A stretch of DNA of 64,000 nt from Streptomyces sp. NBC_01264 (GTDB lineage Bacteria; Actinomycetota; Actinomycetes; Streptomycetales; Streptomycetaceae). Every line of letters begins with the position of its first letter. Positions within the stretch are counted from its first letter, which is position 1. The stretch covers positions 124,001 through 188,000 of the forward strand of contig NZ_JAPEOX010000004.1 of assembly GCF_026340675.1 (NCBI RefSeq), read 5' to 3'. The notes below the pieces were generated by a model. That model saw only the letters and a program-made list of their open reading frames with translations. It had not been told where the DNA came from and made no database searches. Shown in pieces: positions 6,290 through 27,075 of the stretch. The translations under genes and the position numbers were made by a program.

Positions 6290-6301
6290 TACCCGACCGC
6301 T

Positions 6302-6327
6302 GCACGGCTGGCCAGCGGCCGCCGTGC
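6302..6327 (+). terminator. stem-loop after the STAND gene
   Basis: GCACGGC pairs with GCCGTGC (7 bp, 12-nt loop) and is followed by GTTTCCCC. It lies 12 bp after the stop in a convergent gap. As is common in streptomycetes, there is no long T-tract. Confidence 0.45.
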
Positions 6328-6495
6328 GTTTCCCCTCTGACTCCCGGAGCACCCTCTGTGACAACGGCATCCGACACCAGCAGTCGGTCAAGCATCATGG
6401 GCGCGCAGCGGCACTACAAATCGGTCACCAGTGGACTGGAAGCCGGACGCCGAAGGTACGGCAGCGGCGGCATCCACGTGTCATTCCTGCCCGAG

Positions 6496-7830
6496 TTATG
6501 CGACGGCGTGCAGCAGTTCAGGTACGCCTTCCGCCGTCCGGTAAGGAGTGAAGGCGGGAGCCAGATCGCGGACGAGCTGAACGCACCGCGGAGCTCCGAT
6601 CCGTTCGGCCAGGTGGAACGCTTCGAGAGCGTCGGCAGCTGCGGCTTCGGGTTCGCGACGGCTGAGGTGCCCCTGAGCCCGGTACGCGAGGAAGATACCG
6701 CGGGTCTTGTCCCGGCTGGCTGGCAGGAGGGCCTGGCCTTCGGCGATGAGGCGGTGTGCCTGCGTCGTATCGCCAAGGTCGAGCAGACAGCGCCCCGAGT
6801 CGACGGCGAGGTCGGCGGGCGACATCCACGAGCACCAAGCCGGGCTACCGCCCGCGTCCCCGGCACCGAGCAGGCGTTCTGCCGTATTCAGAGAGTTCAG
6901 GGTGGCGCGGCGTTCGCCGAGCGCCGCTTGAGCGCGTGCCAGCCGCAGGTGCAGCAGGGAGCTGGCCGCAGGGTGGGTGGTGCGGCGGAGGGCCTTGGTG
7001 AGGATGCCCGCGGCGGTGGTGGGATCGTCCCGCCAAGAAGCCTGGTAGGCGAGGTCACTGAGAAGGGCCGCGCCCATGTCCCGGTCGTCCCCGGCGTGGG
7101 CGTTGTGCAGGCCGGCAATCCAGTACCGGCTGGCGGCGCCGTGCTGGCCATGGTCGAAGCGGATCCAGGCGACCGTCTGGGAGAGGCTGGCGGCGAGCTG
7201 GTGCAGGCGCACTCCCACGGGGCGGGAGTAGCGCTGCTCGTCGATCAGGTCGGTCACGCGAGCAAGGTGCGCGTCGTAGAGGGGAGCGATGTGCTGGCGC
7301 TGCTCGGTGGCCATAGCGTTCAGGCGGCCGCTGGTCTCCTCCAGCAGGGCCACGACGTCCTCGCCGACCGCGGCGCCGGGGCGCGGGGGACCGGCGGCGA
7401 GAGCCGTGGGTTCGGTTCCGGCCCAGCTTCCAGCCAGGACGACGAGCGCGGATCCGGGGATGACGCTGAGCAGGGTTCGACGGTCCATAGTGTGCAGGGC
7501 CTCTCGCAGTGCGGGCACGGAGTTGGCGTGGCCGAGCGGCACGACACCTCGGTCGACGCGAGGAAGCCAGGCAGGCCAGGCGGCATGGTCGACGTCACCG
7601 GCCGGGATGCCCAAGACCTCCGCGATGTAGGTCTGGGAGACGGCGTCGGGCCGCACCCCGTTGACCTCCCACTTCCGCACCCGGTGCTTGTCGACGCCGG
7701 AGCGAAGCCCGCGACGACGGGCAGCGTCGTGCACGGCCTCGGCGAACTCCACGCGGTCCAAGCCGAGCGCGAGGCGCAGGGCGGCAAGCGGGTGGGGTGT
7801 GCGCTCTTCCTCGTCCACGACGAAATCCAA
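6496..7830 (-). CDS. XRE-type transcriptional regulator with TPR-like C-terminus
   Basis: A 444-residue protein. An N-terminal helix-turn-helix (about residues 14-75) contains LRLALGLDRVEFAEAVHDAA and KHRVRKWEVNGVRPD. It is followed by MDRRTLLSVIPGSALVVLAG, a twin-arginine-like hydrophobic stretch in the middle of the protein. The remaining roughly 300 residues are TPR-like helical repeats that could bind a peptide or small-molecule signal. Translation starts at TTG (7830); a GTG four codons later is possible and neither has a strong ribosome-binding site. It is divergent from the operon starting at 8052, which makes it a candidate regulator of it. The protein at 48201 has the same architecture. 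Confidence 0.75.
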   Translation of the reverse strand: MDFVVDEEERTPHPLAALRLALGLDRVEFAEAVHDAARRRGLRSGVDKHRVRKWEVNGVRPDAVSQTYIAEVLGIPAGDVDHAAWPAWLPRVDRGVVPLGHANSVPALREALHTMDRRTLLSVIPGSALVVLAGSWAGTEPTALAAGPPRPGAAVGEDVVALLEETSGRLNAMATEQRQHIAPLYDAHLARVTDLIDEQRYSRPVGVRLHQLAASLSQTVAWIRFDHGQHGAASRYWIAGLHNAHAGDDRDMGAALLSDLAYQASWRDDPTTAAGILTKALRRTTHPAASSLLHLRLARAQAALGERRATLNSLNTAERLLGAGDAGGSPAWCSWMSPADLAVDSGRCLLDLGDTTQAHRLIAEGQALLPASRDKTRGIFLAYRAQGHLSRREPEAAAADALEAFHLAERIGAPRCVQLVRDLAPAFTPYRTAEGVPELLHAVA

Positions 7831-7928
7831 TCAGGCAGGCACGGCCTGAGCGTACTGCCGGATGCGGCGGGACCCCCGGGGGACCCCCGTCAAACCCTGT
7901 GGCAGGACGCACAGTTGACCGACACTCG

Positions 7929-7972
7929 ATCACCCCGGCGACCTCTCAGGCGCTGTGACGCATCACCCCGGC
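7929..7972. promoter_or_regulatory. two 11-bp direct repeats 33 bp apart in a divergent promoter region
   Basis: ATCACCCCGGC occurs at 7929-7939 and 7962-7972, three helical turns apart, in the 221-bp gap between the minus-strand XRE regulator and the plus-strand operon at 8052. A TTGACC hexamer lies at 7915-7920, but no good -10 follows at 16-18 bp. The repeats are a plausible binding site for the divergent regulator. Confidence 0.4.
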
Positions 7973-8051
7973 ACCGTCTGCACGGTGCCCCTGTGCGCAC
8001 CCGGCTGCGTCCCTCGACGCCGAGCAGGTGCCTTGCGAAAGGACTTCCTCA

Positions 8052-8660
8052 GTGATCAAGCAACCCTTGACGGTTGACGAAGTCGTCGGCGGCGTGGCCG
8101 ACCGTTACGCCGCTCTCGGTTTCCAGACCCGTGGAGATCTCGGGCAGCACTTCCTGCGAACCCCGGACGCCGCTTACGCCCTCCTGGAGCGGGCCGGTAT
8201 CCCGGCCGGAGCACCCGTGCTCGAGGTCGGAGCGGGACTGGGCACGCTCTCGTCCGCGATCGCGACCGCCGGACACCGCATCTGGGCGGTGGAGAAGGAC
8301 GAGCGTCTGCGAGACCACCTGACAGAGCGCCTTGCCCCGTTCGGGGACAGGGCCCGCGTCACCTTCGACGACGTACGCCGCGTCGACCTGGACAGCGGCC
8401 TGGATCCCGGCAGCGCGCTGGTGTCCATCATGCCGTTCGACCCCCGTCTGGCCGCCGACCTGATCTGCCACGTGTTCACCTGTCCCCGCTTGGAGTACGG
8501 GCTCGTGGTCGCACCCAGCGCCAGCGCCGAACTGCTCTCCCGGAGCACGGACTTGGCCGTGGTGGAGGTCGACGGCATCGCCAGGTCCTCCTTCTGGCCG
8601 CCGGCGCCCACCGTGCTGCGAGTCCTCGCAATCGGCCGGAGGTCGACGTGCAGGAGCTGA
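8052..8660 (+). CDS. KsgA/Erm-like SAM-dependent methyltransferase, altered motif IV
   Basis: A 202-residue class I methyltransferase of the RsmA/Erm type. It has the family-specific entry GQHFLRTPDAAYALLE and SAM motif I VLEVGAGLGTLS. The catalytic motif IV, normally N-(I/L)-P-(Y/F), reads IMPF, so the asparagine that positions the target adenine is missing. The protein is also shorter than KsgA (about 270), with little C-terminal domain. The GTG at 8052 is chosen because AAAGGA lies 8 bp upstream; a GTG at 8028 has no such site. It is the first gene of the operon. Ribosomal self-resistance is one possible role, but the altered motif allows another substrate. Its end overlaps the next gene by 13 bp. 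Confidence 0.7.
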   Translation: MIKQPLTVDEVVGGVADRYAALGFQTRGDLGQHFLRTPDAAYALLERAGIPAGAPVLEVGAGLGTLSSAIATAGHRIWAVEKDERLRDHLTERLAPFGDRARVTFDDVRRVDLDSGLDPGSALVSIMPFDPRLAADLICHVFTCPRLEYGLVVAPSASAELLSRSTDLAVVEVDGIARSSFWPPAPTVLRVLAIGRRSTCRS

Positions 8661-9826
8661 TCGCCACGGGCTGCTTCCACTCCGCGCTACCCGGCGGCCA
8701 CCGTGCCCTGTCGGCGCTGCGCTCCGCGCGGAAGGCCGGAGCCCTGGCCGTCGACGCCGGTGACTTCTTCTCCGGCAGCGCCTTTCACACCTACTCCGGC
8801 GGCCGCGTCGAGGAGAAGCTCCTGGCTGAGCTGTACGACGCGGTGATCCCCGGCAACCACGACCTTCCCGACCTGATGCGGCTGCGCCGTCCCGAGGCGT
8901 TCCCGCCGGTCGTCTGCGCCAACGTCTCGCCCCCGCCCGCTTTCGCCGGCCGATGGACGAGCGGGCTGGTGCTGCACGGAGCGTCGCTTCGCGTCGGGAT
9001 CGTCGGTTACCTGGGGGAGCAGGCGTACGGGGCGATTCCCGCGGCTGAGCGCGCGGGCTTCACCTACCGGCCCCCGACGGCCGCGCTGATCGCCGTCGAG
9101 GCCGACGTGCTGCGCTTGGCGGGTGCTGACGTCGTGGTGGGAGTGAGCCACAGCGGTTTCCTCGCCGATGTCGCCGACCAGGAGGCCGAGTGGCCGCTGA
9201 CCACGGTGATCTCCTCGCACTGCCACTCGCCGTGGACGCATTGGACGCAGGGCATCCGGCACGTGGCCAAGCCAGCCGCGCAGGGCGCCGGGCTGCTCCG
9301 CCTCAACCTCGGTGTCGACGGTCCCCTTAGCGTCCGCCACGACGGCCCCTACGGCAGCGGCCCCGAACATGTGGCCTCCGACCTGGACGCGGATTTCGAG
9401 GCGTTCACAGCGTGGGGGAAGCACTCGGTGGGCCATCTCGCGGCCGCCCTGCCCGGCCGCCAGGACGTCGCCCGTCTTCTGGCGGCCCGCGCGCTGCGTG
9501 CGACGGGCGCCGACGCCTTCATCCTCAACACCTACACGCTGCGCGGAGGACTGCCGGCCGAGGTGACCCGCGCGGCGCTGTGGGCCTGCGCGCCGTTCGA
9601 CAGCGACCTCGTGGTGCTCGACGGCACCCACCCACCGCGTGCCCTGGCCGACCGGGCCCGCGAACTGGGCGAGGACCTCACCCTCGCTCCCGCCCCGGCA
9701 AGCGACGCACCGGGGCGCATCGCCACCACCGCCTACCTCGCCGGACGACTGGGACTGCCCGCCCGGCCTCCTGTCCAGCCGTGCACGCTGCACGGCGTCC
9801 TCACCGCTCGTCTGGAGACGTCATGA
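8648..9826 (+). CDS. calcineurin-like metallophosphoesterase / 5'-nucleotidase family
   Basis: A 392-residue protein with the metallophosphoesterase core: DAGDFFSG (metal ligand Asp), IPGNHDL (the GNHD motif), GVSHSG and SHCHSP (C-terminal histidine ligands). After about residue 230 there is a further domain like the C-terminal substrate-binding half of 5'-nucleotidases (ADAFILNTYTLRGGLP). The usual first motif DxH reads C-F-H (ATGCFHS), so one metal ligand may differ. No signal peptide is seen, so it should act in the cytosol, unlike secreted UshA. Next to dCTP-deaminase-fold proteins, a nucleotide or nucleotide-sugar phosphatase role is reasonable. It is coupled to the next gene by ATGA. 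Confidence 0.75.
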   Translation: MQELIATGCFHSALPGGHRALSALRSARKAGALAVDAGDFFSGSAFHTYSGGRVEEKLLAELYDAVIPGNHDLPDLMRLRRPEAFPPVVCANVSPPPAFAGRWTSGLVLHGASLRVGIVGYLGEQAYGAIPAAERAGFTYRPPTAALIAVEADVLRLAGADVVVGVSHSGFLADVADQEAEWPLTTVISSHCHSPWTHWTQGIRHVAKPAAQGAGLLRLNLGVDGPLSVRHDGPYGSGPEHVASDLDADFEAFTAWGKHSVGHLAAALPGRQDVARLLAARALRATGADAFILNTYTLRGGLPAEVTRAALWACAPFDSDLVVLDGTHPPRALADRARELGEDLTLAPAPASDAPGRIATTAYLAGRLGLPARPPVQPCTLHGVLTARLETS

Positions 9827-10638
9827 CCGACCTGCTGCATCTGGACGCCCGCGAGCTGACCTTCGGCCCGACCGCGCCGGACGCCCTCGCGCACGCCTTC
9901 GACGGCTCCGGTGAGGGCCGGGCGCTCGTCACCTTCGAATCCCAGGAGCACGGCCCCAACCTGGACCTCGCGCTGAGCCTGCTGTCCACGCTCGGCACGG
10001 TCCTGGCCCTCTACCCGGACCGAGGCTGCTGGGACGAGCTGACGGTCCGCGATGACGTGGACCCCGGACGCACCCACGGCGTGGGCGAGAACCGGCTGCA
10101 CGTCGACCTCGTCGACCGCGACCGCGCCCCGCGCCTGATCGCTCTGTACTGCGTGCGCGCGGACCCGGCGGGCGGCGGCGCCTCCGCCCTGTCCGACCTC
10201 CACACCGCCACCGGGGACCTCGACCATGCGGATCGCGAGCTGCTGCGGCAGCCGGTCTTCTCCTACTTCACCGACCACGGAGTGCACGGCGTCGGTGCGG
10301 GGATGGCCCGCTTCGCCGTCCTGCCCGAGCGCCTTGACGGCCGGGAACCGATCCGGTTCACCTCCAAGATGCTCCCCCACCTCCAGCGCGGCGAGCTGGT
10401 GGACGGAGGCGCCCCCGAGCAGGTCGCTGCCGCGTTCGGTCGCCTCGTGGCCGCCGTCGAGGAGCGGCGCACCACCGTGCGGCTGCAGCCCGGCCAGCTC
10501 CTCCTCTTCGACCAGTGGCGCTACGCCCACGGCCGCATGCCCATGGGTCCGGGCCAGAGCGAACTGCCGCCCGGCCAGCGCCGACTGCTGAAGCAGGCCT
10601 ATGGTCACCGCCCCGAGCCGACCGGAGGAGCACGATGA
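9823..10638 (+). CDS. TauD/clavaminate-synthase-like Fe(II)/2-oxoglutarate dioxygenase
   Basis: A 271-residue protein with a jelly-roll 2OG-dioxygenase pattern. The facial triad can be read as HVD (in RLHVDLVD, around residue 91) and a distal His in QWRYAHGRMPMG. The 2OG-binding Arg is likely in the following GQRRLLKQAY. The segment RTHGVGENRLHVD resembles the TauD and clavaminate synthase families. It probably hydroxylates, desaturates or cyclises a pathway intermediate in the cytosol. It overlaps both neighbours by ATGA (9823 and 10635), which fixes it in the operon. Confidence 0.78.
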   Translation: MTDLLHLDARELTFGPTAPDALAHAFDGSGEGRALVTFESQEHGPNLDLALSLLSTLGTVLALYPDRGCWDELTVRDDVDPGRTHGVGENRLHVDLVDRDRAPRLIALYCVRADPAGGGASALSDLHTATGDLDHADRELLRQPVFSYFTDHGVHGVGAGMARFAVLPERLDGREPIRFTSKMLPHLQRGELVDGGAPEQVAAAFGRLVAAVEERRTTVRLQPGQLLLFDQWRYAHGRMPMGPGQSELPPGQRRLLKQAYGHRPEPTGGAR

Positions 10639-11195
10639 TCCTGACCGGACCCGCGATCCGCGAGGCCGTCGCCAAGGGGACGATCACCATCGACCCGTTC
10701 GAGCCGGACCTGCTCAACCCCAACAGCTACAACTACCGGCTCGGCGACCAGCTCGAGGAGCTCGTCAGTCGGCCAGCCGACCCCACCGTGCCCGCCCGGA
10801 CGCGCACCATCGACCTGAGCGCCGACGGCTTCGTGCTCCAGCCGGGCACCGTCTACCTGGGCACGACCGTCGAGACGATCGGCAGCGCGGCCTTCGTCAC
10901 AAGCCTGATCGGCCGCTCCTCCCTCGGACGGCTCGGCTGCTTCCTGCAGATCTCCGCCGACCTCGGCCAGCTCGGCGCCGTGCACCGCTGGACGCTGGAG
11001 GTCACCGTGGTCCAGCCCCTGCGGATCTATCCGGGCATGCGCGTCGGGCAGGTTTCCTTCTGGCGTCCGGCCGGCAGCCGCTCCCCCTACAACGGGCACT
11101 ACGGCACCCTCAGCGTCCCCGCCGCCTGGTCCCCGCGCGCGGCCGCCGGCCACGGCGCGGCCCCCGCCCCGCTCCTTCAGGAGGTGACCGCATGA
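10635..11195 (+). CDS. dCTP-deaminase-fold protein A (catalytic Glu present)
   Basis: A 186-residue protein of the dCTP deaminase/dUTPase fold, close to the length of Dcd (about 190). Family motifs are clear: NPNSYNYRLGD near the N-terminus, GRSSLGRLG (the RSS nucleotide-binding segment), and WTLEVTVVQPLRIYPGM, in which the Glu matches the catalytic Glu of E. coli Dcd. It may therefore deaminate or hydrolyse a cytosine nucleotide (BlsM of blasticidin biosynthesis is a nucleotide hydrolase related to this fold). The ATG overlaps the preceding stop. A paralogue lacking the Glu follows immediately; the two may form a mixed trimer. Confidence 0.8.
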   Translation: MILTGPAIREAVAKGTITIDPFEPDLLNPNSYNYRLGDQLEELVSRPADPTVPARTRTIDLSADGFVLQPGTVYLGTTVETIGSAAFVTSLIGRSSLGRLGCFLQISADLGQLGAVHRWTLEVTVVQPLRIYPGMRVGQVSFWRPAGSRSPYNGHYGTLSVPAAWSPRAAAGHGAAPAPLLQEVTA

Positions 11196-11716
11196 TTCTC
11201 ACCGGCCCCGAGATCACGTCCCGCGTCAGGGACGGCCGCATTCGCATCGAGCCGTTCGACGCGAGCCACGCACAGCCCAATTCCTACGACTTCCACCTCG
11301 GCGAGACCGTCGGCTCGTACACCAGCCACGTGCTGGACTGCGCCCGCGACAACCCCTTCGAGCAGCACCCCATCCCCCCGGACGGGTTCGAACTCCAGCC
11401 GCACCGTATCTACCTGGCCGCCACACAGGAGCGGATCGGCAGTGACCTCGTCGTGCCCGTCATCCGGGCCCGTTCCTCCATCGCCCGCCTGGGCTTGTTC
11501 GTCCACGTCACCGCCGACCTGATCGACCTCGGCTCCTTCGGCCAGCTCACTCTGCAACTGCACGCCGTGCAGCCGGTGCGCATCTATCCGGGCATGCTGA
11601 TCGGCCAGGTCACCTTCTGGGAGACGACCGGAGAGCGGGTCCTGTACGACGGCAAGTACCAGGGCAGCCGCGGCCCGCAGCCTTCGAAGTCCCACCTCGA
11701 CTTCGAGGTCCGGTGA
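11192..11716 (+). CDS. dCTP-deaminase-fold protein B (catalytic Glu replaced by Gln)
   Basis: A 174-residue paralogue of the previous protein. It shares the start MILTGP, QPNSYDFHLGE, RARSSIARLG and VRIYPGMLIGQVTFW. At the catalytic position it has Gln (LTLQLHAVQPV) where protein A has Glu. Dcd needs this Glu to activate water, so this copy should be catalytically impaired, structural, or specialised for binding. The two genes overlap by ATGA, which favours co-assembly. It is equally well linked to the next gene by a GTGA overlap. Confidence 0.8.
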   Translation: MILTGPEITSRVRDGRIRIEPFDASHAQPNSYDFHLGETVGSYTSHVLDCARDNPFEQHPIPPDGFELQPHRIYLAATQERIGSDLVVPVIRARSSIARLGLFVHVTADLIDLGSFGQLTLQLHAVQPVRIYPGMLIGQVTFWETTGERVLYDGKYQGSRGPQPSKSHLDFEVR

Positions 11717-12456
11717 TCACCCCTGCGGCCCTCTGCCGCGAGCCGAAGGGTCCTGTGCCCGGCGGGCGGGGAGAGCGGGTGGTGGCGCTGGTCGCCCACC
11801 CGGACGACGCCGAGCTGCTGTGCTACGGAACGCTGCGCCGGGCCGTCGGTGCCGGGGCGACCGTGACGGTGGTCGTGGTTACCCACGGAGCGAACGGCGT
11901 CTCCCTGGCCGACGCCGCCGACGGCCGCCGGCTCGGCACGGGCGAAAGGGCCGAGGAGGTCCGCGCGGCCTGGCTCTCCACCGGAATCCAGCTCGCATTC
12001 CTAGGCTTACCCGATGGCGCCCTGGTGGCCGACCGGCACCTGATCTCCGCCGTGGAGGCCGAACTGACGCGCCTGGGCTGCACGCTGCTGATCACCCACA
12101 GCCTCAACGCCAGCACCGACCACCAGGACCATCGGGCACTGGCCCTCGCCGCTGCGAACGCCGCCACCCGCGTGACCACCTGCCACACCGTGCTCCACGG
12201 CGAGCCCCACGCCCCCCGCTCCACCTTCACCCCCACCGTCCTCGTCGACATCACCGAGCACCTCGACGACAAGGTCACCGCCCTGGCCGCGCACCGCACC
12301 CAGGCGGGCCGCTGGTACCTCGGCAAGGAGTACACCAACCACCGCGCTGTCCAGGCCGGATGGCGCCTGCGCCCGGCGGCAGCAGCCGCCGGGCGCGCGT
12401 ACGAGTCCTTCGAGACCTCCGTGCTCACCCTGTTCACCCAGGAGGACCGGTCGTGA
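11713..12456 (+). CDS. PIG-L/LmbE family deacetylase with a TTA codon
   Basis: A 247-residue zinc-dependent N-deacetylase of the PIG-L family (MshB, LmbE, GlcNAc-PI deacetylase). The signature AHPDDAEL supplies the zinc ligands and general base, with a second metal site in DHQDHRAL. The usual substrate is an N-acetylated amino sugar, so the pathway probably makes or modifies an amino-sugar intermediate, consistent with the GT4 and MurG-like enzymes downstream. An in-frame TTA codon lies at 12007-12009 (Leu in GLPDG). TTA is rare in Streptomyces and makes translation depend on the bldA tRNA, so production is probably developmentally timed. GTGA overlaps join it to both neighbours. Confidence 0.85.
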   Translation: MITPAALCREPKGPVPGGRGERVVALVAHPDDAELLCYGTLRRAVGAGATVTVVVVTHGANGVSLADAADGRRLGTGERAEEVRAAWLSTGIQLAFLGLPDGALVADRHLISAVEAELTRLGCTLLITHSLNASTDHQDHRALALAAANAATRVTTCHTVLHGEPHAPRSTFTPTVLVDITEHLDDKVTALAAHRTQAGRWYLGKEYTNHRAVQAGWRLRPAAAAAGRAYESFETSVLTLFTQEDRS

Positions 12457-13193
12457 CCTTGACCTACATCGAGCAGCCGCCCTTCGCGCCCTGGCTCGGG
12501 TTCTGCGAGGCGCTCTTCGCCTGCGAGACCGTCGCTCTCTACGACGACGTGCCCTACACCGACGGCGGTTACCAGAACCGTAACCGGATCAAGACCGCCG
12601 ACGGGGTGCAGTGGCTGACCGTGCCGGTCAACCGCGCCGTCGGGCAGCTGATCCGCGACACTCCCGTCGCCGCCTCCTTCGACGCCGACAGCATGCTGCG
12701 GGCGATCCGCCTGGCCTACGCCCGTACCCCGCACGTCGAGGAGTTGCTGAACGTCCTGCGGCCTGTCCTCGACGCGAGCCACGCGTGGTTGGTCGATCTG
12801 AACCTCGACCTGCTCACCCAGCTTGCCGCCGCCCTCGGCGCCCCCGCGCGCCTACGGCTCACCTCCGAGCTGGCCGTCGACGCCGACGACAAAACCAGAC
12901 GTCTGGCGGGCATCTGCGCAGCCACCGGCGCCGACGTCCTGTGGGCGGGATCGGGCACCCGCACCTACCTCGACACCACAACCCTGGCCGAGCACGGCGT
13001 GCAGGTGCGGTGGAACGAGTACGCCGACCGTCACCCGGTCTACCGCCAGGCCTGGAGCCGGCAGGGCTTCGTGCCCAACCTGTCCGTCATCGACACCGTC
13101 TGCTCGCTGGGCTGGGCGGGCACCGCGGCGCTCCTGCGCACCGGACTTGCCGCCTACCACCAGCAGCCCGCCCCGAAGGAGGCGACCGCATGA
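12453..13193 (+). CDS. WbqC-like family protein
   Basis: A 246-residue protein matching the WbqC-like family, with the typical start YIEQPPFAPWLGFCEALFAC, then YDDVPYTDGGYQNRNRIKT and WLTVPV. WbqC-like proteins occur in polysaccharide and secondary-metabolite clusters. Their biochemical role is poorly defined; acyl or aminoacyl transfer to amino sugars has been proposed for some. It is coupled to the deacetylase upstream (GTGA) and the glycosyltransferase downstream (ATGA). In a cluster with a tRNA synthetase it is one candidate for the enzyme that uses an activated amino acid, but nothing in the sequence proves this. Confidence 0.75.
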   Translation: MTLTYIEQPPFAPWLGFCEALFACETVALYDDVPYTDGGYQNRNRIKTADGVQWLTVPVNRAVGQLIRDTPVAASFDADSMLRAIRLAYARTPHVEELLNVLRPVLDASHAWLVDLNLDLLTQLAAALGAPARLRLTSELAVDADDKTRRLAGICAATGADVLWAGSGTRTYLDTTTLAEHGVQVRWNEYADRHPVYRQAWSRQGFVPNLSVIDTVCSLGWAGTAALLRTGLAAYHQQPAPKEATA

Positions 13194-14296
13194 CGCGCCC
13201 GCTGATCCTCACCGGCATCGACCTGCCCCTGGAACCCTCCTGCGGCTCGACCATCTGGTGCAGCGACGTCTACACCCGCCTGGCCGGCCACGGCTTCGAA
13301 ACGGTGTTCGCGCACCTGCCCGGCAGCGGCACCTGGCAGCACGGCTTCGCCGACACAGCCCAACTGACCGCTGACAAAGCGCCGTACGGGCCCGGGTTCG
13401 ACGCGTACGCCGACGCGCTCACCGACGAAGTCCGCGGCCTCGTACGCCAACGCCGGCCGGGCCTGATCCATGCCCAGCACCTGGGGTTCGGCCTCGCTCT
13501 CGCCTTCGCGCGGGCGGCCGGCGGCACGCCGATGGTGTCCGTCGCGCACGGTACCGACGTCATCGCCGCCACCGAGCACGAGCAGGCGCGAGCCGTCCTG
13601 AACGAGATCGTCGACGCGAGCGTGTACGTCATCGTCCCGAACGCGGCCATGGCCGACGGGGTGAACCGGCTCACTGACGGCCGCCACACCGACCGCCTGG
13701 TGGTCGTGCCCTGGGGTGTCCCGCTGCCCGCGGCACCGACCGCACACCCGCGCCCGGGAAAGCACCTGAGCCTGGTGCACGCGGGCCGTCTCGACGGCAA
13801 CAAGGACACGATCACCGCGATCGAGGCTCTGGCGCGGACCACCGGACATCACCTCACCGTGATCGGCAGCGGCAGCGAACTCGAGACCCTCATCCGGCGC
13901 GCCGCCGAGCTCAACCTCGCCGACCGCGTGATGTTCGAGCCGTTCCTGCCCCGTCAGGACCTGTTCAAGCGGTTCGGCGACTTCGACGCGATGGTGTTCA
14001 CCACCCGCACGCTGGAGGCCTACGGGCTCGTCGCCGTCGAAGCCCAAGCGCACGGCCTGCCCGTCCTCCACAGCGACGTCCCCGGGCTGGCGGTCACGCT
14101 CGGCACCGGCGGTCTGAGCTTCCCGCCGGGCGACGCCGCCGCCCTTGCCTCGCTCATCGACAACCTGGCCGCCAGCCCGGCCACCCGCCGGCTCCTACAC
14201 CAGGCGGCCGTCGCCAACGCCTGCGGCCACGACATCGCCCACACTGCGGCCCACCTTGCCGCGCTGTCCCGCACCGCGAGGGAAGGCGCCCGATGA
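13190..14296 (+). CDS. GT4-family glycosyltransferase
   Basis: A 368-residue GT-B glycosyltransferase. The N-terminal acceptor domain contains HAQHLGFGLALAFARAAGG and VSVAHGTDV. The C-terminal nucleotide-sugar domain has LSLVHAGRLDGNKD, the strand LTVIGSGSE, and the donor-binding TRTLEAYGLVAVEAQAHGLP with the GT4 ExxxxxxxE-type signature (EAYGLVAVE). It should transfer a sugar from a nucleotide donor in the cytosol; the acceptor is unknown. It lies between the WbqC-like protein and the synthetase with ATGA overlaps on both sides. Confidence 0.87.
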   Translation: MTRPLILTGIDLPLEPSCGSTIWCSDVYTRLAGHGFETVFAHLPGSGTWQHGFADTAQLTADKAPYGPGFDAYADALTDEVRGLVRQRRPGLIHAQHLGFGLALAFARAAGGTPMVSVAHGTDVIAATEHEQARAVLNEIVDASVYVIVPNAAMADGVNRLTDGRHTDRLVVVPWGVPLPAAPTAHPRPGKHLSLVHAGRLDGNKDTITAIEALARTTGHHLTVIGSGSELETLIRRAAELNLADRVMFEPFLPRQDLFKRFGDFDAMVFTTRTLEAYGLVAVEAQAHGLPVLHSDVPGLAVTLGTGGLSFPPGDAAALASLIDNLAASPATRRLLHQAAVANACGHDIAHTAAHLAALSRTAREGAR

Positions 14297-15963
14297 ACGA
14301 CGTCCCCCTGTACGCCAGTCGCCTGTGGCCGCCGGTCCGGCCGCGCACCGGCGACGCTTCCGCCTCCACCATCGACCTGCTGCACACCCTCGGCCTGATC
14401 GCCCGCACCGACGCGACCGGCGTGCACAGCCTCCTGCCGCTCGGTCTCCGGGTCCACGACCGACTCACCGCCATCGCCCGGCACGCCTTCGAGGAACGCG
14501 GCGCCCTGACCTTCGCCCCGCCCACGCTGCAGAGCCGCACCCTGTGGGAGCAGACCGGACGCTGGGACGTCTACCGCCGCGAAGGGGCGCTGCTGACCGT
14601 GTCCTCCTCCAGCGGCGAGGAGATGTGCCTGGCCCCCACCTCAGAGGAGATCGCGGCCGCCACCGTCCGCGAGCACCTGCGCTCCCACCGGGACCTGCCC
14701 GTCCGCCTGTCGCTGAGCACCACCAAGTTCCGCGACGAGCTCTCCCCGCGAGGCGGGCTGATGCGCGGCCGCGAGTTCACCATGGCCGACGCCTACACCT
14801 TCGACACCGGCCCCGACACCATGCGCGCCTCCGTCGACTTCCTCAACGAGGCCTGCACCGCCGCCCTCACCGGCATGGGCCTGAGCGGCACCTTCACCGC
14901 GCCCGCCGACGGCGGCAGCATCTCCGCCGGCCCCAGCACCGAACACCTCGTCCTCGCCGACAGCGGACAGGGCACCATCGTCGCCTGCACCCACTGCGGC
15001 AACCGCGGCGACGGCGCCGTCGTCGCCGCCGGGCCCCCGCCGCCCGGCCCGGACCCGGTCGTCAACGTCATCGCCTTCACCCTCACCCTGCCCGATGGCG
15101 CCACCCAGACCGCGACCGTCGCCATCCGCTCCGACCTCCACGTCAGCCCCCGCAAGATCGCCGCCACCACAGGCGCCGCCCGCGTCGACCTCATCGACCC
15201 CGACCTTCTTCCCGACCTGCTCGGCAAGAAGGCCGGCACCCTCACCCCCTGGGACGCCGCCGGCGCTTCCGATGTCCTGCCGCTCTACGACCTGTCCGTC
15301 GCCGACCTGGAGACCTTCGCCATCTCCGACGGAGGTGCCGGCCTGCGCACAGGGGTCCGCTGGAGCGGCGGCCGCGGCCTGCCCACGCTGCACCCCCGCG
15401 GCGTCGACCTGCATCACGCGACCGAACACAGCGGATGCGGGGCCTGTCGCCAGGGCCACTACAGCGTCCTGCGTGCCGTCGAGGTCGCCCACGTCTTCGA
15501 GCTGGGCACGCAGTACGCCGACCCGATGAACCTCCGCTACAGCGATCCCGACGGCCGCTCCGCCACACCCTGGATGGCCTGCTCAGGCATCGGCATCACC
15601 CGCTGTCTGCAAACCGCCGCCGACCTCAACCGCGACCGGCACGGCCTGCGATGGGCACCGCGCACCGGCCCGGCCGACGTCCACCTCGTGGTGCTACGCG
15701 CCGACCAGCCCGACATGCGCGACCGCGCCGACCGTCTCGCCCACAGCCTCACCGAGCGCCGGGTGAGCGTACTCGTCGACGACCGGCCCCTACCCGCCGG
15801 CGACAAACTCCGCTACGCCCGCCTCCTCGGCCTGCCCCACGCCGCCGTCCTCTCCCCCGACCACCCCGACACCGAGATCGAAGTCATCACCCGCTCCACC
15901 GGACGTACCACTCATACCGATCTCAGCCACATCGCCGACCAGAATCCCATCACCCGCACATAG
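14293..15963 (+). CDS. prolyl-tRNA synthetase paralogue (bacterial type, full length)
   Basis: A 556-residue class II synthetase with the complete architecture of bacterial ProRS. Motif 1 lies around LLPLGLRVHDRL (residues 47-58). APTSEE at 114-119 corresponds to the proline-site TxEE. Motif 2 is FRDELSPRGGLMRGREF (146-162), motif 3 is CSGIGITRCL, and between them is an editing-like insertion of about 180 residues. The C-terminal anticodon-binding domain ends in VDDRPLPAGDKLRYARLLGLP. The key residues for proline activation appear present. The gene is the last of a tightly overlapping biosynthetic operon, and an unusual tRNA gene follows 196 bp downstream. This argues for a dedicated biosynthetic synthetase rather than housekeeping ProS; a drug-resistant duplicate of ProS is the main alternative. 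Confidence 0.88.
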   Translation: MNDVPLYASRLWPPVRPRTGDASASTIDLLHTLGLIARTDATGVHSLLPLGLRVHDRLTAIARHAFEERGALTFAPPTLQSRTLWEQTGRWDVYRREGALLTVSSSSGEEMCLAPTSEEIAAATVREHLRSHRDLPVRLSLSTTKFRDELSPRGGLMRGREFTMADAYTFDTGPDTMRASVDFLNEACTAALTGMGLSGTFTAPADGGSISAGPSTEHLVLADSGQGTIVACTHCGNRGDGAVVAAGPPPPGPDPVVNVIAFTLTLPDGATQTATVAIRSDLHVSPRKIAATTGAARVDLIDPDLLPDLLGKKAGTLTPWDAAGASDVLPLYDLSVADLETFAISDGGAGLRTGVRWSGGRGLPTLHPRGVDLHHATEHSGCGACRQGHYSVLRAVEVAHVFELGTQYADPMNLRYSDPDGRSATPWMACSGIGITRCLQTAADLNRDRHGLRWAPRTGPADVHLVVLRADQPDMRDRADRLAHSLTERRVSVLVDDRPLPAGDKLRYARLLGLPHAAVLSPDHPDTEIEVITRSTGRTTHTDLSHIADQNPITRT

Positions 15964-16109
15964 ATTCGCCGCGTTAAACCGCTGAAGAATGCCAGATGAC
16001 ATCGACCCTGATGGCGTCTCGCATTGCCATACCCGAAATCGGAGAACAGGCGGGCAGTTCAATGGATCCGTACGGCGGCGGAATATCTTCGCTCGGCCGC
16101 ACGGACCCG

Positions 16110-16138
16110 TTGACCGCAGTTCACCAGGGGGCTAGCGT
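16110..16138 (+). promoter_or_regulatory. sigma-HrdB-type promoter for the tRNA gene
   Basis: TTGACC (16110-16115) and TAGCGT (16133-16138) are separated by exactly 17 bp and match the vegetative promoter consensus of streptomycetes. Transcription should start near 16145, giving a 5' leader of about 15 nt before the tRNA. The rest of the gap after the synthetase (15964-16109) shows no gene. Confidence 0.75.
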
Positions 16139-16159
16139 CCCTGCCATCGCAACTCGAAA

Positions 16160-16234
16160 CGGGTCGTAGCTCAATTGGTGGAGCACGGCAAAAGCGTTGC
16201 CGAGGAGCTGGTTCAAATCCAGCCGACCCGACCA
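16160..16234 (+). tRNA. non-canonical tRNA with tRNA-Pro-like acceptor end
   Basis: The 75-nt sequence folds into a full cloverleaf. The acceptor stem is CGGGTCG/CGACCCG (7 perfect pairs). The D-arm is GCTC/GAGC with a loop containing GG. The anticodon stem is CGGCA/TGCCG, the variable loop has 4 nt, and the T-arm is GCTGG/CCAGC with loop TTCAAAT. Discriminator A73 and the CCA end are encoded. C1-G72 plus A73 are the acceptor identity elements of bacterial tRNA-Pro. The 7-nt anticodon loop is AAAGCGT: position 33, normally an invariant U, is A. The nominal anticodon AGC would read an Ala codon, but Streptomyces does not normally use tRNA-Ala(AGC). It probably does not decode normally. Its neighbour is a ProRS paralogue, its likely charging enzyme. 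Confidence 0.85.
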
Positions 16235-16309
16235 ATTTGCCACCTTCAAGGCGCCAGGAAGAGCGCTTCCGTGGTGAAACACGGTGCGTTCATTTCAGAA
16301 AAGGGACCG

Positions 16310-17389
16310 ATGAAAATCGCCATCACGGGCGGCGCCAGCGCCGGTCACGTCGTTCCGGCCCTCGCTGTCGCCAGCCAGCTCCGCGACCGCGGCGCTGAGC
16401 TGGTCTTCCTCGGGCGTGAGAGCACCATCGAGCACGACTACGCCCAGCGGGCCGGCATCCCCTTCCGCCACGTCCCCTCGGCCGGGCTGCGCCGTCACCG
16501 CTCCGCCAGCAACCTGCTGATGCCGTTCACCGTCGCCCGGGGCGTCCTCGCCGCCTACAGGGCGCTGCGGCGTGAACGGCCCGACGCCCTGTTCTCCAAG
16601 GGCTCCTACGTCTCGGTGCCCGTCGGCATCGGGGCCGCCCTGGCCCGCGTCCCCGTCGTCATCCACGAGAGCGACCACTCCCTGGGCCTCGCGAACAGGA
16701 TCCTCGGACGCCTGGCCACCACCATCTGCCTGAGCGTCCCCGCCTCCGGCCCGATGCCGCGCTGGATGCGCGGCAAGACCCAGGTGACCGGACTGCCGCT
16801 GCGCGCGGACCTCACCGACGCCAAGCCCGACGTGCTACGCGACCGCCTCGGCATTCGCGCCGACAAGCCGGTACTGCTGATCTTCTGCGGAAGCAGCGGA
16901 TCCCAGCGGATCAATACCGCCATCCGCGCCCAACTCCCCGCGCTGTGCGAGCGGTACAGCGTGCTACACGTCGTCGGCAAGGGCAACCTCGACCCCCAGG
17001 TCTCCGACCGGCCCGGGTACTGGCAGCTGGAGTACCTGCACGACGACATGCCTCACGCCCTGACCCTGGCGGATCTCGTCATCGGCCGGGCGGGGGCCAC
17101 CACCCTGGCCGAACTCGCCGCCCTGGACCTGCCTGCCGTACTCGTGCCGCTGCCCGCCTCCGTCAGCCGCGGGGACCAGCTCGACAACGCGCGGGCCTAC
17201 GCCGCTCAGCACCCGGAGCGCTGCCGCGTCATCGCCGACGAGGAGCTGGCCGACACCGGCGTACTCGTCCAGGCATGCGCTGCCCTGTCCGCCGTCCCCC
17301 GCGACGGACAGGGCACCCGCGCCCGTCCGGAGGCCGCGGCCGAACTCATCGCCGATCTCGTCCTGCAGGCGGCGGACCCGCGCCGGTAG
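16310..17389 (+). CDS. MurG-like glycosyltransferase paralogue
   Basis: A 359-residue GT-B enzyme of the MurG family (GT28). It has the N-terminal glycine-rich loop GGASAGHVVPALAVA, the MurG-specific KGSYVSVPVGIGAALARVPV and IHESDHSLGLANRIL, and the donor-binding GRAGATTLAELAAL with DQLDNARAY. MurG adds GlcNAc to lipid I at the inner face of the membrane. This copy lies outside a cell-division cluster and follows the tRNA, so it is probably specialised to another acceptor. The ATG at 16310 is chosen because AAAAGGGA precedes it by a few bases and the glycine-rich loop starts at residue 7. It is probably co-transcribed with the tRNA. Confidence 0.88.
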   Translation: MKIAITGGASAGHVVPALAVASQLRDRGAELVFLGRESTIEHDYAQRAGIPFRHVPSAGLRRHRSASNLLMPFTVARGVLAAYRALRRERPDALFSKGSYVSVPVGIGAALARVPVVIHESDHSLGLANRILGRLATTICLSVPASGPMPRWMRGKTQVTGLPLRADLTDAKPDVLRDRLGIRADKPVLLIFCGSSGSQRINTAIRAQLPALCERYSVLHVVGKGNLDPQVSDRPGYWQLEYLHDDMPHALTLADLVIGRAGATTLAELAALDLPAVLVPLPASVSRGDQLDNARAYAAQHPERCRVIADEELADTGVLVQACAALSAVPRDGQGTRARPEAAAELIADLVLQAADPRR

Positions 17390-17396
17390 CACGGTG

Positions 17397-17774
17397 TCAG
17401 TCGTGGTTGCCGTACATGTCGAGGATCGCCGCCTCGCTCTCGCCCCGGTAGACGACGTGCCAGTGCTGGTGCTTGGACTCCTGGTACATGCCCAGGTTCG
17501 TCGTCACCGAGCAAGACCCGTACTCCTTCTCCACACCGGCGGCCACTTCCCGTACCACCGCCACGACCTCGTGCAGGAGGTCCTCGTCGGAGTTGCCGAG
17601 ATCGGTGAGCGAGGGGACATGCTCCTTGGGGATCACCACGATGTGCACCGGGTACGAGGGGTTGGTGTGATGGAAGGCCAGGACCCGTTCGGTCTCCTTC
17701 ACCCTCTCGATGGGAACCACGCCGGCCAGCGCCTGATGGCAGTAGAAGTCGGAAACGGTCGCAGTACCGGTCAC
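17397..17774 (-). CDS. HIT-family (histidine triad) nucleotide hydrolase
   Basis: A 125-residue protein with a HIT domain: HHTNPSYPVHIVVIPKEHV, then the histidine triad HQHWHVV. HINT-type proteins hydrolyse nucleoside phosphoramidates and aminoacyl-adenylates such as those released by tRNA synthetases. The start is GTG at 17774. It is convergent with the MurG-like gene, only 7 bp from its stop. A link to the nearby ProRS paralogue, removing stray aminoacyl-AMP, is attractive but unproven. Confidence 0.88.
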   Translation of the reverse strand: MTGTATVSDFYCHQALAGVVPIERVKETERVLAFHHTNPSYPVHIVVIPKEHVPSLTDLGNSDEDLLHEVVAVVREVAAGVEKEYGSCSVTTNLGMYQESKHQHWHVVYRGESEAAILDMYGNHD

Positions 17775-18257
17775 AGGTGCACACCCTCGCTAGGCAGAAG
17801 TCTCGGAAGGACGCGTGCCCAACGTGGACATCGGGCAGGGCCTCAACGCCAGCGTAGCGATCAGCCAACTCGTAGCCGAATCGACTCAACACCAGGCCCG
17901 CGAACGGGTGTTCGTGGAACTGGGATCGCTCGCCCTTCAAGTCATCGGCCGCTGCTTCCCAGCTATCTCCCTCACCCTCCTCAGTCCTTGGCTCCGTCTC
18001 GTTCTGAACTGCGCGTCCGCCACCATGCCGGCGGCATCCCCGTCGCGGCCCGGTCCGTGCTGCCCGCTACCCCTGAAAGGGGACGACACCCAGGGGTTGA
18101 ACGCGTCCGCTCCGGCGCCGACCTTCGCGGCAGCCGGGAGTTCCATCATCGGCGTTTCGGCCAACCACGCCTCCGCGCGCACCCGGTGCGGCGGGCGGAT
18201 CCGTGCATCCTCCACCTGTCGACGCGCGCACCATCTCGGGATTCCAGACTCGACCGA
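17775..18257. other. gap without a convincing gene
   Basis: About 480 bp between the HIT gene and the next operon. A plus-strand frame from GTG 17815 and a minus-strand frame from ATG 17940 are both open. The minus-strand start (about 55 codons, with GYELADRYAGVEALPDVHVG) reads protein-like but then runs out of frame into the HIT gene. I recognise neither. It may hold a decayed gene and the promoters of the flanking genes. Confidence 0.35.
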
Positions 18258-19827: not shown

Positions 19828-21110
19828 CGGTCGCCGCCCAGAACGCGAAGACCACCACTTGGTCGAGGCCCGCCTTCCGGTTCCTGCTCGGCAGCGAAGC
19901 CGTGACCCTGTCCGGATCGGCAGTGAGCGCCGTCGCTCTACCTGCGCTGGCCGTGCTGGAACTGCACGCGTCCACCACCGAGGTCGCCGTGCTCGCATTC
20001 CTCGGACAGCTTCCGAACGCGGTCGCGCTATGGGCCGGGGCCCTGTCCGACCGGCATCCCAAGCGGCCCCAGCTGATCGCCTCGGACCTGACGGCGGCCG
20101 GCGCGCTGGTGACCGTTCCGGTCGCCGCCCTCGCCGGAGCGCTCACCGTCGGGCAGCTGTGCGCGGTGGCAATCGTGCTCGGTGCGGCCAAGGTGGTGCA
20201 CGATGCCGCGGCGATCAGCCTCCTGCCCGCCGTCGTCGATCCGGAACAACTCCATGACGCGAACGCGAAGCTCGGCGCGGCGTCGTCGGTGGCCGACAGC
20301 ATCGGCACCAACGCCGGTGCCGCCCTGGTCGGTGCCGTCGGCGCGGCCCGCTCGGTCCTGGTCGACGCCGTGTCCTTCCTGGTCTCCGCCGTGCTCGTCT
20401 GGCGAATGCGTGTCCCCGAGACCGCCACCGCGCCGGACGCGGCCCGCCCGAGCCTGGCGCGGGACATCGCCGAAGGCGTGCGCTACGTGGCCCGGCAGCC
20501 CACGATTCGCACCGTGATTGCGGCCCTGTCGACCCTGTCCTTCGGCCTGGCAATCATGAACACCTACTGGGCGTTCTATCTCCTAGACCGACTCGGAGCC
20601 TCCCCGTCCGCCTTCGGCGTGATCATGGGCATCGGCGGTGCCGGCGGCGTGGCCGGTGCGCTACTCGCACCGAAGATCGCCGCCCGGATCGGCATCGGTC
20701 CCACGATCATCGCGGGGTTCGCGGTCAGCCCTCTCGCCCAAGTACCCCTGCTCCTCGCAGAGCCCGGACTGCGGTGGCAGATCGTCCTGGCCGCCGCGCT
20801 GGCCGGGCAGCTGTTCTGGGCGACCGCGTCGGGGACCAGCCAACGGTCCCTGCGCCAGGCCGTATGCGACCCCGATTTCCAGGGCCGAATGCAGTCCGCC
20901 AGCACCACGCTCACCGCCGGGGCCCGCCCACTCGCCGCCGCCACCGCCGGCGGCCTGGTCCTCCTCCTCGATGTCCGGGCCACCCTCGCCATCGGCGCGC
21001 TCCTCCAAGTCGTACCCATCGTCCTCCTGGTCGCCTCCCCCATCCGCACGCTGCGGAGAATCCCTGCCCGCGTCTCCGTGCCGCCCGCCCGTGAGGGAGC
21101 CCCTTCGTGA
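19824..21110 (+). CDS. MFS transporter
   Basis: A 428-residue membrane protein with about 12 hydrophobic helices. The MFS loop motif between helices 2 and 3 is readable as GALSDRHPKRPQLIASDL. The layout resembles drug or metabolite exporters of the MFS_3/enterobactin-exporter type. It is the only transporter visible in the two neighbouring operons, so it probably exports or imports their product or precursor at the cytoplasmic membrane. It is joined by GTGA overlaps to the NUDIX gene and the first methyltransferase. Confidence 0.88.
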   Translation: MTVAAQNAKTTTWSRPAFRFLLGSEAVTLSGSAVSAVALPALAVLELHASTTEVAVLAFLGQLPNAVALWAGALSDRHPKRPQLIASDLTAAGALVTVPVAALAGALTVGQLCAVAIVLGAAKVVHDAAAISLLPAVVDPEQLHDANAKLGAASSVADSIGTNAGAALVGAVGAARSVLVDAVSFLVSAVLVWRMRVPETATAPDAARPSLARDIAEGVRYVARQPTIRTVIAALSTLSFGLAIMNTYWAFYLLDRLGASPSAFGVIMGIGGAGGVAGALLAPKIAARIGIGPTIIAGFAVSPLAQVPLLLAEPGLRWQIVLAAALAGQLFWATASGTSQRSLRQAVCDPDFQGRMQSASTTLTAGARPLAAATAGGLVLLLDVRATLAIGALLQVVPIVLLVASPIRTLRRIPARVSVPPAREGAPS

Positions 21111-21688
21111 CCACAGCGTCCACCGAGGCCGTGACCTACTGGGAGCGGCTCTGGTCCCAGGGCCGCCGCTACCGGCAACTCGACGACACTGAGAACCGGC
21201 TGCTGGAGGACCACCTCGGCCCCGGCCGCGAACGCCCCGCCCTCGACATCGGCTGTGGCGACGGCTCGCTTGCCCGACGCCTCGCCTGGCTCGGCTACCG
21301 CACGACCGGCATCGACTGCTCCCCCAGCGCCGTCGAGCTCGCCGCCGCCCAGAACCCCGGGCCCGGTCACGAACCGGTCTGGCGGTGCATGGACATCACC
21401 ACCGACGACCTCGGCGTCCTGCCGGAGCCGGCGTACGCGGTCGTCACCTGTCGCCTGGTCTACCGGTGGATCGACGACAAAGCCACCTTCCTCGACCGCG
21501 TCCGCCGCCTCGTTGCCCCGGGCGGGACCTTCTGGGTGGTCACCGAGATCTCCGGGCGCCGCGCCGCTACCGACCCCTTGCAGGGCCTCGGAATCACCCC
21601 CGCCCAGGCCGAGATCCTCACCGCGGGCTGGTCCAACGTTCAGACCGCCGACCTCGACGTCCTGCGCTGCTACGCCCTACGCCCATGA
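21107..21688 (+). CDS. class I SAM-dependent methyltransferase
   Basis: A 193-residue Rossmann-fold methyltransferase. Motif I is ALDIGCGDGSLARRL, motif II the acidic end of TTGIDCSPSAV, and the post-motif region YAVVTCRLVYRWIDD with LVAPGGTFWVVTE is typical of Methyltransf_11/25 enzymes. Substrate unknown. The GTG overlaps the transporter stop, and the stop overlaps the next gene by ATGA, so two methyltransferases are translated in series. Confidence 0.85.
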   Translation: MTTASTEAVTYWERLWSQGRRYRQLDDTENRLLEDHLGPGRERPALDIGCGDGSLARRLAWLGYRTTGIDCSPSAVELAAAQNPGPGHEPVWRCMDITTDDLGVLPEPAYAVVTCRLVYRWIDDKATFLDRVRRLVAPGGTFWVVTEISGRRAATDPLQGLGITPAQAEILTAGWSNVQTADLDVLRCYALRP

Positions 21689-22521
21689 CCCCCGCCGCCC
21701 GCGATCTGATGGAGAACCTGGTGACCACTGAGTCGGACACCGTCGAGACCTGGAACGCCTACGGCGCCCACCAACTGGCCAGAGGGCTGGAGCTGCCCAA
21801 GCTGGACCGGTGGGACTGGGGCATTCGGGACGTCCGCCCCGGCATCGAAGCCCTCGGTGACGTGAACGGGCTGCGCGTCCTCGACCTTGGCAGCGGCCTT
21901 GGCCGGCACGCCGCTGACCTCGCCGCCCGGGGCGCCGACGTCACCGCCGTGGATGCCTCCCCCGCCCAGCACCAGCGTGCCCTCGCCCGCTACCCGGACG
22001 TCCCGGGTCTGCACCTGGTGTGCGCCGACGCCGTGGCCCACCTGCGCGACGCCGATCCGTACGACCTGATCTACTCCGTCGGCTCCATGCCGTACCTGGA
22101 CCCCGACCGGCTGCTGCCCGTCCTGGCCAACAGCCTCGAGCCGGGCGGCCGACTGCTGTTCTCGGCGCTGCACACCAACTCGGACGGCATCGGGCCGTCG
22201 GCCGCGCTGGTGCCGCGCCCCGAGATCCTGCGGCTGCCCGGTACCACCGAAGACCATCCCGTGACGATGTGGGTCCTTACCCCGCAGCTGTGGGAGGACC
22301 TCTTGGTCCAGCACGGCCTCAGAATGGAATCGGTCACGGCGATCGACTCCCCGACGCCGGACAACGCCGTCCGCTACCGGCTGTACGCAGCCCGGCGTCC
22401 ACAGCGGGAGCCAAACCCGGCCTGCGGCGGACACGCTGTGCCAGTCCCCCGGAACGACGACCGAACCGTCGACCGGGAGCCGACGGCGGCCTCAGGGGAG
22501 GCGCCACCGTGGACGCGCTGA
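21685..22521 (+). CDS. class I SAM-dependent methyltransferase
   Basis: A 278-residue methyltransferase. Motif I is VLDLGSGLGRHAADL, followed by VTAVDASPAQHQRA, CADAVAHL, and the motif IV region YDLIYSVGSMPYLDP. The SMPY signature (x-x-P-Y) near motif IV suggests an N-methyltransferase-like active site, but the family is broad. The N-terminal WNAYGAHQLARG is typical of small-molecule methyltransferases of actinobacteria. The last about 40 residues are low complexity. It overlaps the upstream gene by ATGA and the following exonuclease gene by 13 bp. Confidence 0.83.
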   Translation: MTPAARDLMENLVTTESDTVETWNAYGAHQLARGLELPKLDRWDWGIRDVRPGIEALGDVNGLRVLDLGSGLGRHAADLAARGADVTAVDASPAQHQRALARYPDVPGLHLVCADAVAHLRDADPYDLIYSVGSMPYLDPDRLLPVLANSLEPGGRLLFSALHTNSDGIGPSAALVPRPEILRLPGTTEDHPVTMWVLTPQLWEDLLVQHGLRMESVTAIDSPTPDNAVRYRLYAARRPQREPNPACGGHAVPVPRNDDRTVDREPTAASGEAPPWTR

Positions 22522-24286: not shown

Positions 24287-24292
24287 TTTCCC

Positions 24293-27045: not shown

Positions 27046-27075
27046 GCGGGCGCTCCTGGGTGTCTCGGGCCTGGG

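Follow-up and report, generated by a model that had tools for sequence, protein, structure and literature searches.

Why should a biosynthetic gene cluster carry a second prolyl-tRNA synthetase (ProRS) and, just behind it, a tRNA gene that lacks a proline anticodon? The question is raised by a 64,000 nt stretch of Streptomyces sp. NBC_01264 (contig NZ_JAPEOX010000004.1, positions 124,001-188,000; termed here the window, whose own numbering is used throughout), in which a chain of overlapping genes ends with a ProRS paralogue (termed here ProRS2) that is followed, 196 bp beyond the end of its open reading frame (ORF), by a tRNA. The answer favored here, whose chances seem to us slightly better than even, is that this compact cluster uses ProRS2 and the adjacent tRNA as a dedicated charging pair, which feeds a WbqC family protein--a putative transferase with a predicted fold resembling that of BshC. 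The cluster is rare in Streptomyces and probably makes a sugar-containing natural product.

An earlier note on this DNA had described a complete ProRS-type enzyme at the end of an overlapping operon and, 196 bp on, a well-folded tRNA with encoded CCA, with the proline-type acceptor determinants C1-G72 and A73, and with no proline anticodon; each of these readings holds. Its further inference, that the pair is orthogonal and supplies prolyl- or related tRNA for biosynthesis or modification, is supported in part, and to it we add a probable downstream chemistry. The enzyme is encoded by a single ORF, which contains three Pfam domains and overlaps the preceding GT4 glycosyltransferase gene by 4 bases (14293/14296). 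The tRNA is named tRNA-Ala(AGC) by ARAGORN and scores 54.1 bits against the Rfam tRNA model (gathering score 29); it is structurally complete, its acceptor, D, anticodon and T stems having 7, 4, 5 and 5 bp, and its acceptor end consists of C1-G72, A73 and an encoded CCA. Because its anticodon loop reads AAAGCGT, it has A rather than U at position 33 and no NGG anticodon--that is, it lacks both marks of an elongator tRNA-Pro. The same is true of its counterparts: among 14 cluster tRNAs, all have A33 and a loop of the form (A/T)AAG(C/T)(G/A)T, and ten carry the anticodon AGC and four AGU, neither of which is a proline anticodon. CCA is encoded in 12 of the 14, the exceptions being MnatMP-M17 and the decayed locus of genome G058.

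Twelve of these tRNAs were aligned (those of the Streptomyces NBC_00239 plasmid and of genome G1216, which were found later, were left out). Mean column identity is 92%, and C1, G72 and A73 are invariant in all 12; the remaining two tRNAs agree. The cloverleaf fits closely: 99.2% of 252 cells pair, as compared with 20-49% in slid controls. Changes on both sides of a pair occur in 5 of 21 pairs (5-68, 6-67, 27-43, 48-65 and 51-63), in one sequence each, with three of the five coming from Kitasatospora phosalacinea alone. For four of five covariation measures the observed value was reached by none of 500 shuffles; for the fifth, further pair types, it was reached by 67. These observations bear on the alternative that ProRS2 by itself is a tRNA-independent amide ligase, the tRNA being only an activator or a relic. 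Such a role has a precedent in the mycothiol ligase MshC, which has been described as tRNA-independent (PMC2922099), but the double changes maintain the tRNA fold and CCA is encoded in 12 of the 14 loci, and we consider this alternative very unlikely.

The tRNA also looks as though it has a private promoter, from which it would be transcribed: TTGAC occurs 5' of the tRNA in 12 of the 14 loci (CNH099 has TTGCC and G058 has TCGAC), and in each of those 12 a second hexamer (TAGCGT, TAGCTT etc.) follows after 16-18 bp. A TTGAC with a hexamer so spaced resembles a promoter consensus.

The same genome yields 76 tRNA matches in all. Of the tRNAs extracted from it, the nearest have about 50 of 72 positions in common with the cluster tRNA; the genome's tRNA-Pro(GGG) has 49 of 72, including the CGGG...CCCG-ACCA end. 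For position 33, 63 different tRNA calls from this genome (the cluster tRNA excluded) were inspected by script: 50 clearly have U33, 11 are ambiguous, and two odd tRNA-Ala calls are without it. The cluster tRNA thus looks unable to read codons. If the pair nevertheless acted in translation, it would insert proline at Ala or Thr codons or within a special mRNA, a role to which the AGC and AGU anticodons read by ARAGORN might point; yet the replacement of U33 by A33 in 14 of 14 tRNAs, the occurrence of two different anticodons among orthologues and the mistranslation of Ala or Thr codons that, by the usual rules, would presumably follow render this hardly credible. The idea that the tRNA is a mere integration site was dropped because, in the loci mapped, it sits between ProRS2 and a MurG-like gene.

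Unusual tRNAs occur elsewhere in this genome as well. One such gene, resembling tRNA-Ala(AGC) and having C33, lies among fatty-acid-type genes on the chromosome (C1:2878095); no synthetase was found among the eight neighboring ORFs scanned there, nor among the two scanned around another odd tRNA (C2:1746505). The window's own contig (C4) has four further tRNA matches (13570-14179 and 38442-38517), one of which is called tRNA-Ala(CGC) and has A33.

ProRS2 has diverged in its editing and anticodon domains. The genome encodes a separate housekeeping ProRS that is only 33% identical to it. At least 81 ProRS2 proteins occur among 120 of 169 matches listed, the set being cut where identity drops from at least 44% to 33-34% and including Nocardia, Pseudonocardiaceae and S. 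hayashii types; for motif counts, the 76 of these with at least 500 aa were compared with 39 ordinary ProRSs. The class II core is kept (PTxEE in all 76 proteins, motifs 2 and 3 in 75 each). By contrast, the editing-domain block carrying K(T/N)L, presumably the site of the editing lysine, is filled in 0/76 ProRS2 proteins versus 39/39 ordinary ones, and the corresponding regular expression matches 1/76 versus 35/39. Because bacterial ProRSs without editing domains exist, the unfilled block bars ProRS2 only from full bacterial-type ProRS membership. Within the anticodon domain, the KFxDA motif is found in none of the ProRS2 proteins (versus 35/39), a KFRYA-type motif being found instead in 74 of 76 (versus 0/39). 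ProRS2 falls below the NCBIfam proline--tRNA ligase cut-offs (323 versus 558 bits for NF006625; 282 versus 306.7 for TIGR00409), and in a tree of 22 ProRS2 and 21 other ProRS proteins it is split off by a branch with support 100/100, both sides of the split being on long branches. The cut editing domain, the changed anticodon domain and a tRNA without a proline anticodon fit a charging pair that would be used outside of translation.

Because copies of aminoacyl-tRNA synthetases in biosynthetic clusters are often resistance genes, ProRS2 might instead be an insensitive copy that sustains translation while the cluster makes a ProRS inhibitor, with the cluster's HIT protein perhaps destroying aminoacyl-nucleotides. 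Phosmidosine, which bears proline, is a possible model for such a product, and the cluster does contain nucleotide-type enzymes along with the HIT protein. This nucleotide antibiotic has been listed as a probable ProRS inhibitor (PMC7689648). Self-resistance, however, leaves a conserved, non-decoding tRNA without a role, and an enzyme that lacks the editing block in 76 of 76 cases and whose anticodon-domain motif differs in 74 of 76 would be a poor housekeeping replacement; we thus judge it improbable.

How consistently do the synthetase and tRNA occur together? The earlier note had proposed comparing synteny across genomes and had regarded absence of the tRNA from all related clusters as refuting a pair; instead, in every one of the 14 ProRS2 loci whose DNA was inspected, a set much smaller than that of the 81 proteins, the tRNA follows at a distance of some 200 bp on the 3' side. 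ProRS2 was detected in 8 of 392 Streptomyces genomes (E 1e-70), in one of which (G058) the gene is broken, and ARAGORN finds a tRNA just 3' of ProRS2 in all eight. A pattern for the acceptor, D and anticodon arms matches in exactly the same 8 of 392 genomes, always beside ProRS2, though diverged tRNAs elsewhere would escape this pattern because it was built from those eight tRNAs. A scan of genome contigs yielded 24 loci, of which 8 are ProRS2 (61-86% identity) and 16 are others (28-39%); four of the ProRS2 loci are new (Streptomyces CNH099, S. canus, S. turgidiscabies and Kitasatospora phosalacinea), all with the tRNA, and the NBC_00239 plasmid and G1216 bring the total to 14. By comparison, ARAGORN finds no tRNA in three 16-22 kb Paenibacillus loci around an ordinary ProRS.

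The surrounding genes are conserved too. Nine protein queries (the methyltransferase, 5'-nucleotidase-like enzyme, TauD, deaminase region, PIG-L, WbqC, GT4, ProRS2 and MurG-like enzyme) were each matched in 11 of 11 loci, and gene order is identical wherever positions were compared, namely in six loci, NBC_00239 and G1216. In G058 both members of the pair are decaying: ProRS2 has been broken in two and contains a stop, GT4 is fragmented, and the tRNA has lost both its CCA and the 31-39 pair; the genes upstream are unmatched within the stretch examined. This joint conservation also bears on whether the tRNA might be a regulator or sensor of the cluster, read or controlled by ProRS2. A pseudo-tRNA of Bacillus cereus is thought to belong to a regulatory RNA (PMC3399842), but the conserved adjoining synthetase, the kept acceptor end and the encoded CCA point to charging, and a regulatory role seems to us correspondingly remote.

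ProRS2 occurs in 1 of 396 genomes of a phylum sample, which is the window's own, and in 1 of 35 genomes (G1216, with cluster and tRNA present) of one further genus, that of G641; it was found in none of 14 genomes of the genus of G581 and, using a Nocardia ProRS2 as a query that may not suit the genus, in none of 148 genomes of the genus of G697. An order-level search with a ProRS2 profile (E 1e-90) matched 234 of 391 genomes and was discarded as a count because it was too permissive: beyond the window's genome and G058, the scores are those of ordinary ProRS.

What might such a pair do? We envision that ProRS2 loads proline, or a close analogue, onto the tRNA as an ester and that the tRNA, being non-decoding (A33, no proline anticodon), serves as an aminoacyl donor; that GT4 joins an N-acetyl amino sugar to an acceptor; that PIG-L exposes an amine by deacetylation; that the BshC-like WbqC protein moves the aminoacyl group from the tRNA to the freed amine of the amino sugar; and that the product is tailored by the TauD, methyltransferase and MurG-like enzymes. 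This scheme draws on two observations: the GT4, PIG-L and WbqC gene families stand side by side in the cluster, and the best match to the predicted fold of WbqC is BshC, the cysteine-adding enzyme of bacillithiol biosynthesis--a resemblance at the level of fold, not of sequence. More speculatively, the WbqC/BshC fold class may in general use aminoacyl-tRNA (prolyl-tRNA from ProRS2 and its tRNA here and, by the same logic, Cys-tRNA for BshC, whose mechanism of cysteine ligation a 2015 review still calls unknown), the present pair then being a natural orthogonal pair for metabolism; by analogy this is conceivable, yet we think it rather unlikely.

Several points weigh against this scheme. Foldseek gives no match to WbqC at E ≤ 1e-3, the BshC match having E 5.8e-3 and TM 0.39; BshC is absent from the PDB sequences retrieved with a WbqC profile; hhalign of WbqC against only two BshC sequences gives a probability of 0.1; and Pfam finds WbqC alone in this protein, which contains no recognizable BshC sequence. 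GT4 is far below the MshA and BshA cut-offs (its best NCBIfam relative being MshA), and bacillithiol enzymes do not stand out among the PDB matches of PIG-L and GT4. The tRNA independence of MshC noted above counts likewise. Proline identity in E. coli depends upon G72, G35 and A37, next upon G36 and A73, and upon further elements for each isoacceptor (PMC9976931); the cluster tRNA has G72, G35 and A73 but lacks the determinant G36. A second type of cluster, which combines PIG-L and WbqC with two GT4 genes (genome G015, C1:6177500-6197400, at 4333-18197) has no tRNA, nor any synthetase among the ten ORFs scanned; WbqC therefore does not necessarily depend on a dedicated tRNA. (That cluster also has QueC, PTPS, 5'-3' exonuclease and MFS genes.)

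Finally, the acceptor is a guess; it may be nucleoside-like because the cluster encodes two deaminase-fold proteins and a 5'-nucleotidase-like enzyme. Those same genes, together with the KsgA/Erm-like methyltransferase in the core, might suggest instead that the tRNA itself provides the scaffold or substrate, and that its 3' nucleotides, together with the amino acid they bear, are modified and then cut off as an aminoacyl-nucleoside product. Yet the conserved core lacks a nuclease (an RNase T-like gene is situated beyond it, at 22518-23174), and alignment shows that the methyltransferase lacks the Asn of N-[LI]-P-[FY], which we take to be the motif of the ribosomal RNA-adenine methyltransferases; this route appears quite improbable.

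In its GT4, PIG-L and predicted BshC-like-fold proteins, encoded side by side, the cluster resembles the BshA-BshB-BshC and MshA-MshB-MshC systems for bacillithiol and mycothiol; it differs in having a ProRS and tRNA instead of a cysteine ligase, in its many further enzymes, in a WbqC without detectable similarity to BshC sequences and in a GT4 below the MshA and BshA cut-offs. To our knowledge, the tRNA-dependent pathways now known borrow the cell's translation tRNAs. Cluster-borne synthetase paralogues and tRNA-dependent enzymes are themselves familiar, from valanimycin SerRS/VlmA, AcmF, SbzA, CDPS and PEARL (PMC12945691, PMC2922099). The present cluster resembles these in containing a synthetase paralogue and in that an amino acid is probably supplied by way of a tRNA, but differs in having its own non-decoding tRNA, the accessible parts of those sources making no mention of such a gene, in its class II ProRS, and in a candidate transferase with a predicted WbqC/BshC rather than a GNAT, CDPS or LanB-like fold. 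In Staphylococcus aureus, tRNA-Gly isoacceptors for peptidoglycan bridges escape translation by binding EF-Tu weakly (PMC4052509); these are likewise tRNAs reserved from translation for amide formation, whereas the cluster tRNA has a changed anticodon loop (A33) and a linked synthetase of its own. The B. cereus pseudo-tRNA (tRNA-Other) is similarly a tRNA-like gene outside of translation, but it is regarded as a portion of some larger regulatory RNA, and the accessible text mentions no linked dedicated synthetase (PMC3399842).

Among the matches listed in the open-licence literature, judged by title or abstract opening, none reports a natural-product cluster that contains a tRNA gene, nor the present cluster, nor any connection between WbqC and BshC. 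The comparative case for the pair is strong. If the proposed role is correct, then the pair would be a natural orthogonal synthetase and tRNA, useful for engineering; other pathways of this sort could be sought by way of their non-decoding tRNAs; and this locus, where the pair lies beside a GT4, a deacetylase and a BshC-like protein, allows a direct test of how BshC obtains an activated amino acid.

The cluster spans 9.7 kb from the methyltransferase through the HIT gene (Table 1), with a chain of plus-strand genes in which neighbors overlap slightly, usually by 4 bases (9823/9826, 10635/10638, 11192/11195, 11713/11716, 12453/12456, 13190/13193 and that preceding ProRS2, which comes last). Gene starts are predicted, several having been assigned in this analysis. 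Two ORFs were corrected: the deaminase region consists of two overlapping genes, and the conserved gene past the MurG-like gene encodes a minus-strand HIT protein, which is less cluster-specific because its relatives occur elsewhere in Streptomyces too. In the second deaminase-fold protein, Gln replaces the Glu of the TLE motif in 9 of 13 loci (those where the motif search matched, i.e., the window and eight relatives), so this protein may not deaminate; an altered or structural role is possible. The Pfam Metallophos score of the 5'-nucleotidase-like enzyme is slightly below the cut-off. The regulator upstream, for which Pfam gives only a sub-threshold TPR match, has a counterpart annotated as an XRE family regulator in NBC_00239 and probably belongs with the cluster. 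Within the core, Pfam identifies neither a polyketide or peptide synthetase nor a transporter, and PADLOC, run on ten ORFs, gives a single weak methyltransferase match and nothing more.

Table 1. Features of the cluster, in window coordinates.
Feature	Position	Strand	Evidence and occurrence
XRE/TPR-type regulator	6496..7818	-	Relatives in 7/12 loci, window included
KsgA/Erm-like class I methyltransferase	8028..8660	+	Pfam RrnaAD 1.1e-8; 11/11 loci
5'-nucleotidase-like metallophosphoesterase	8648..9826	+	Top PDB sequence matches are 5'-nucleotidases (5.9e-8); 11/11 loci
TauD-type iron/2-oxoglutarate dioxygenase	9823..10638	+	Pfam TauD 4.8e-16; 11/11 loci
dCTP-deaminase-fold protein 1, TLE motif intact	10635..11195	+	Frame and start re-derived; own gene in NBC_00239
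dCTP-deaminase-fold protein 2, Gln for Glu of TLE	11192..11716	+	Pfam DCD 4e-38; PDB dCTP deaminases
PIG-L family deacetylase	11713..12456	+	Pfam PIG-L 1.2e-20; 11/11 loci
WbqC family protein, predicted BshC-like fold, proposed aminoacyl transferase	12453..13193	+	Pfam WbqC; 11/11 loci
GT4 glycosyltransferase	13190..14296	+	Pfam Glycos_transf_1 6.7e-22; 11/11 loci
ProRS2, bacterial-type ProRS paralogue, 556 aa	14293..15963	+	Pfam tRNA-synt_2b, tRNA_edit and HGTP_anticodon
Promoter-like pair TTGACC / TAGCGT, 17-bp spacer, 5' of tRNA	16110..16138	+	Presumed consensus
Cluster tRNA, loop AAAGCGT, A33, CCA encoded	16160..16234	+	ARAGORN; Rfam
MurG-like GT28 glycosyltransferase	16310..17389	+	Pfam GT28 N and C domains; 11/11 loci
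HIT domain protein, convergent to MurG-like gene	17397..17774	-	Pfam HIT 1.3e-14; ORF in 11/12 loci

Genes from 18470 on (kinase-like, NUDIX, MFS, methyltransferases, RNase T-like and a second PIG-L) were excluded from the core because their matches in other plasmid regions form separate blocks and because they have relatives, intact or partial and away from the core, in only 2 of 7 flanking regions compared. Farther along the window, also outside the conserved core, minus-strand urease-alpha/amidohydrolase, 2-oxoglutarate oxygenase and APH domains are encoded at 26221-32069. In other genomes, plasmid NZ_CP108096.1 encodes, directly past the cluster (20169-24650), two radical SAM proteins, an LD-carboxypeptidase and another amino acid--tRNA ligase-related protein, and in Streptomyces sp. 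RP5T an ordinary-looking tRNA-Trp gene (14419-14495) lies about 1.3 kb past the cluster's MurG-like gene.

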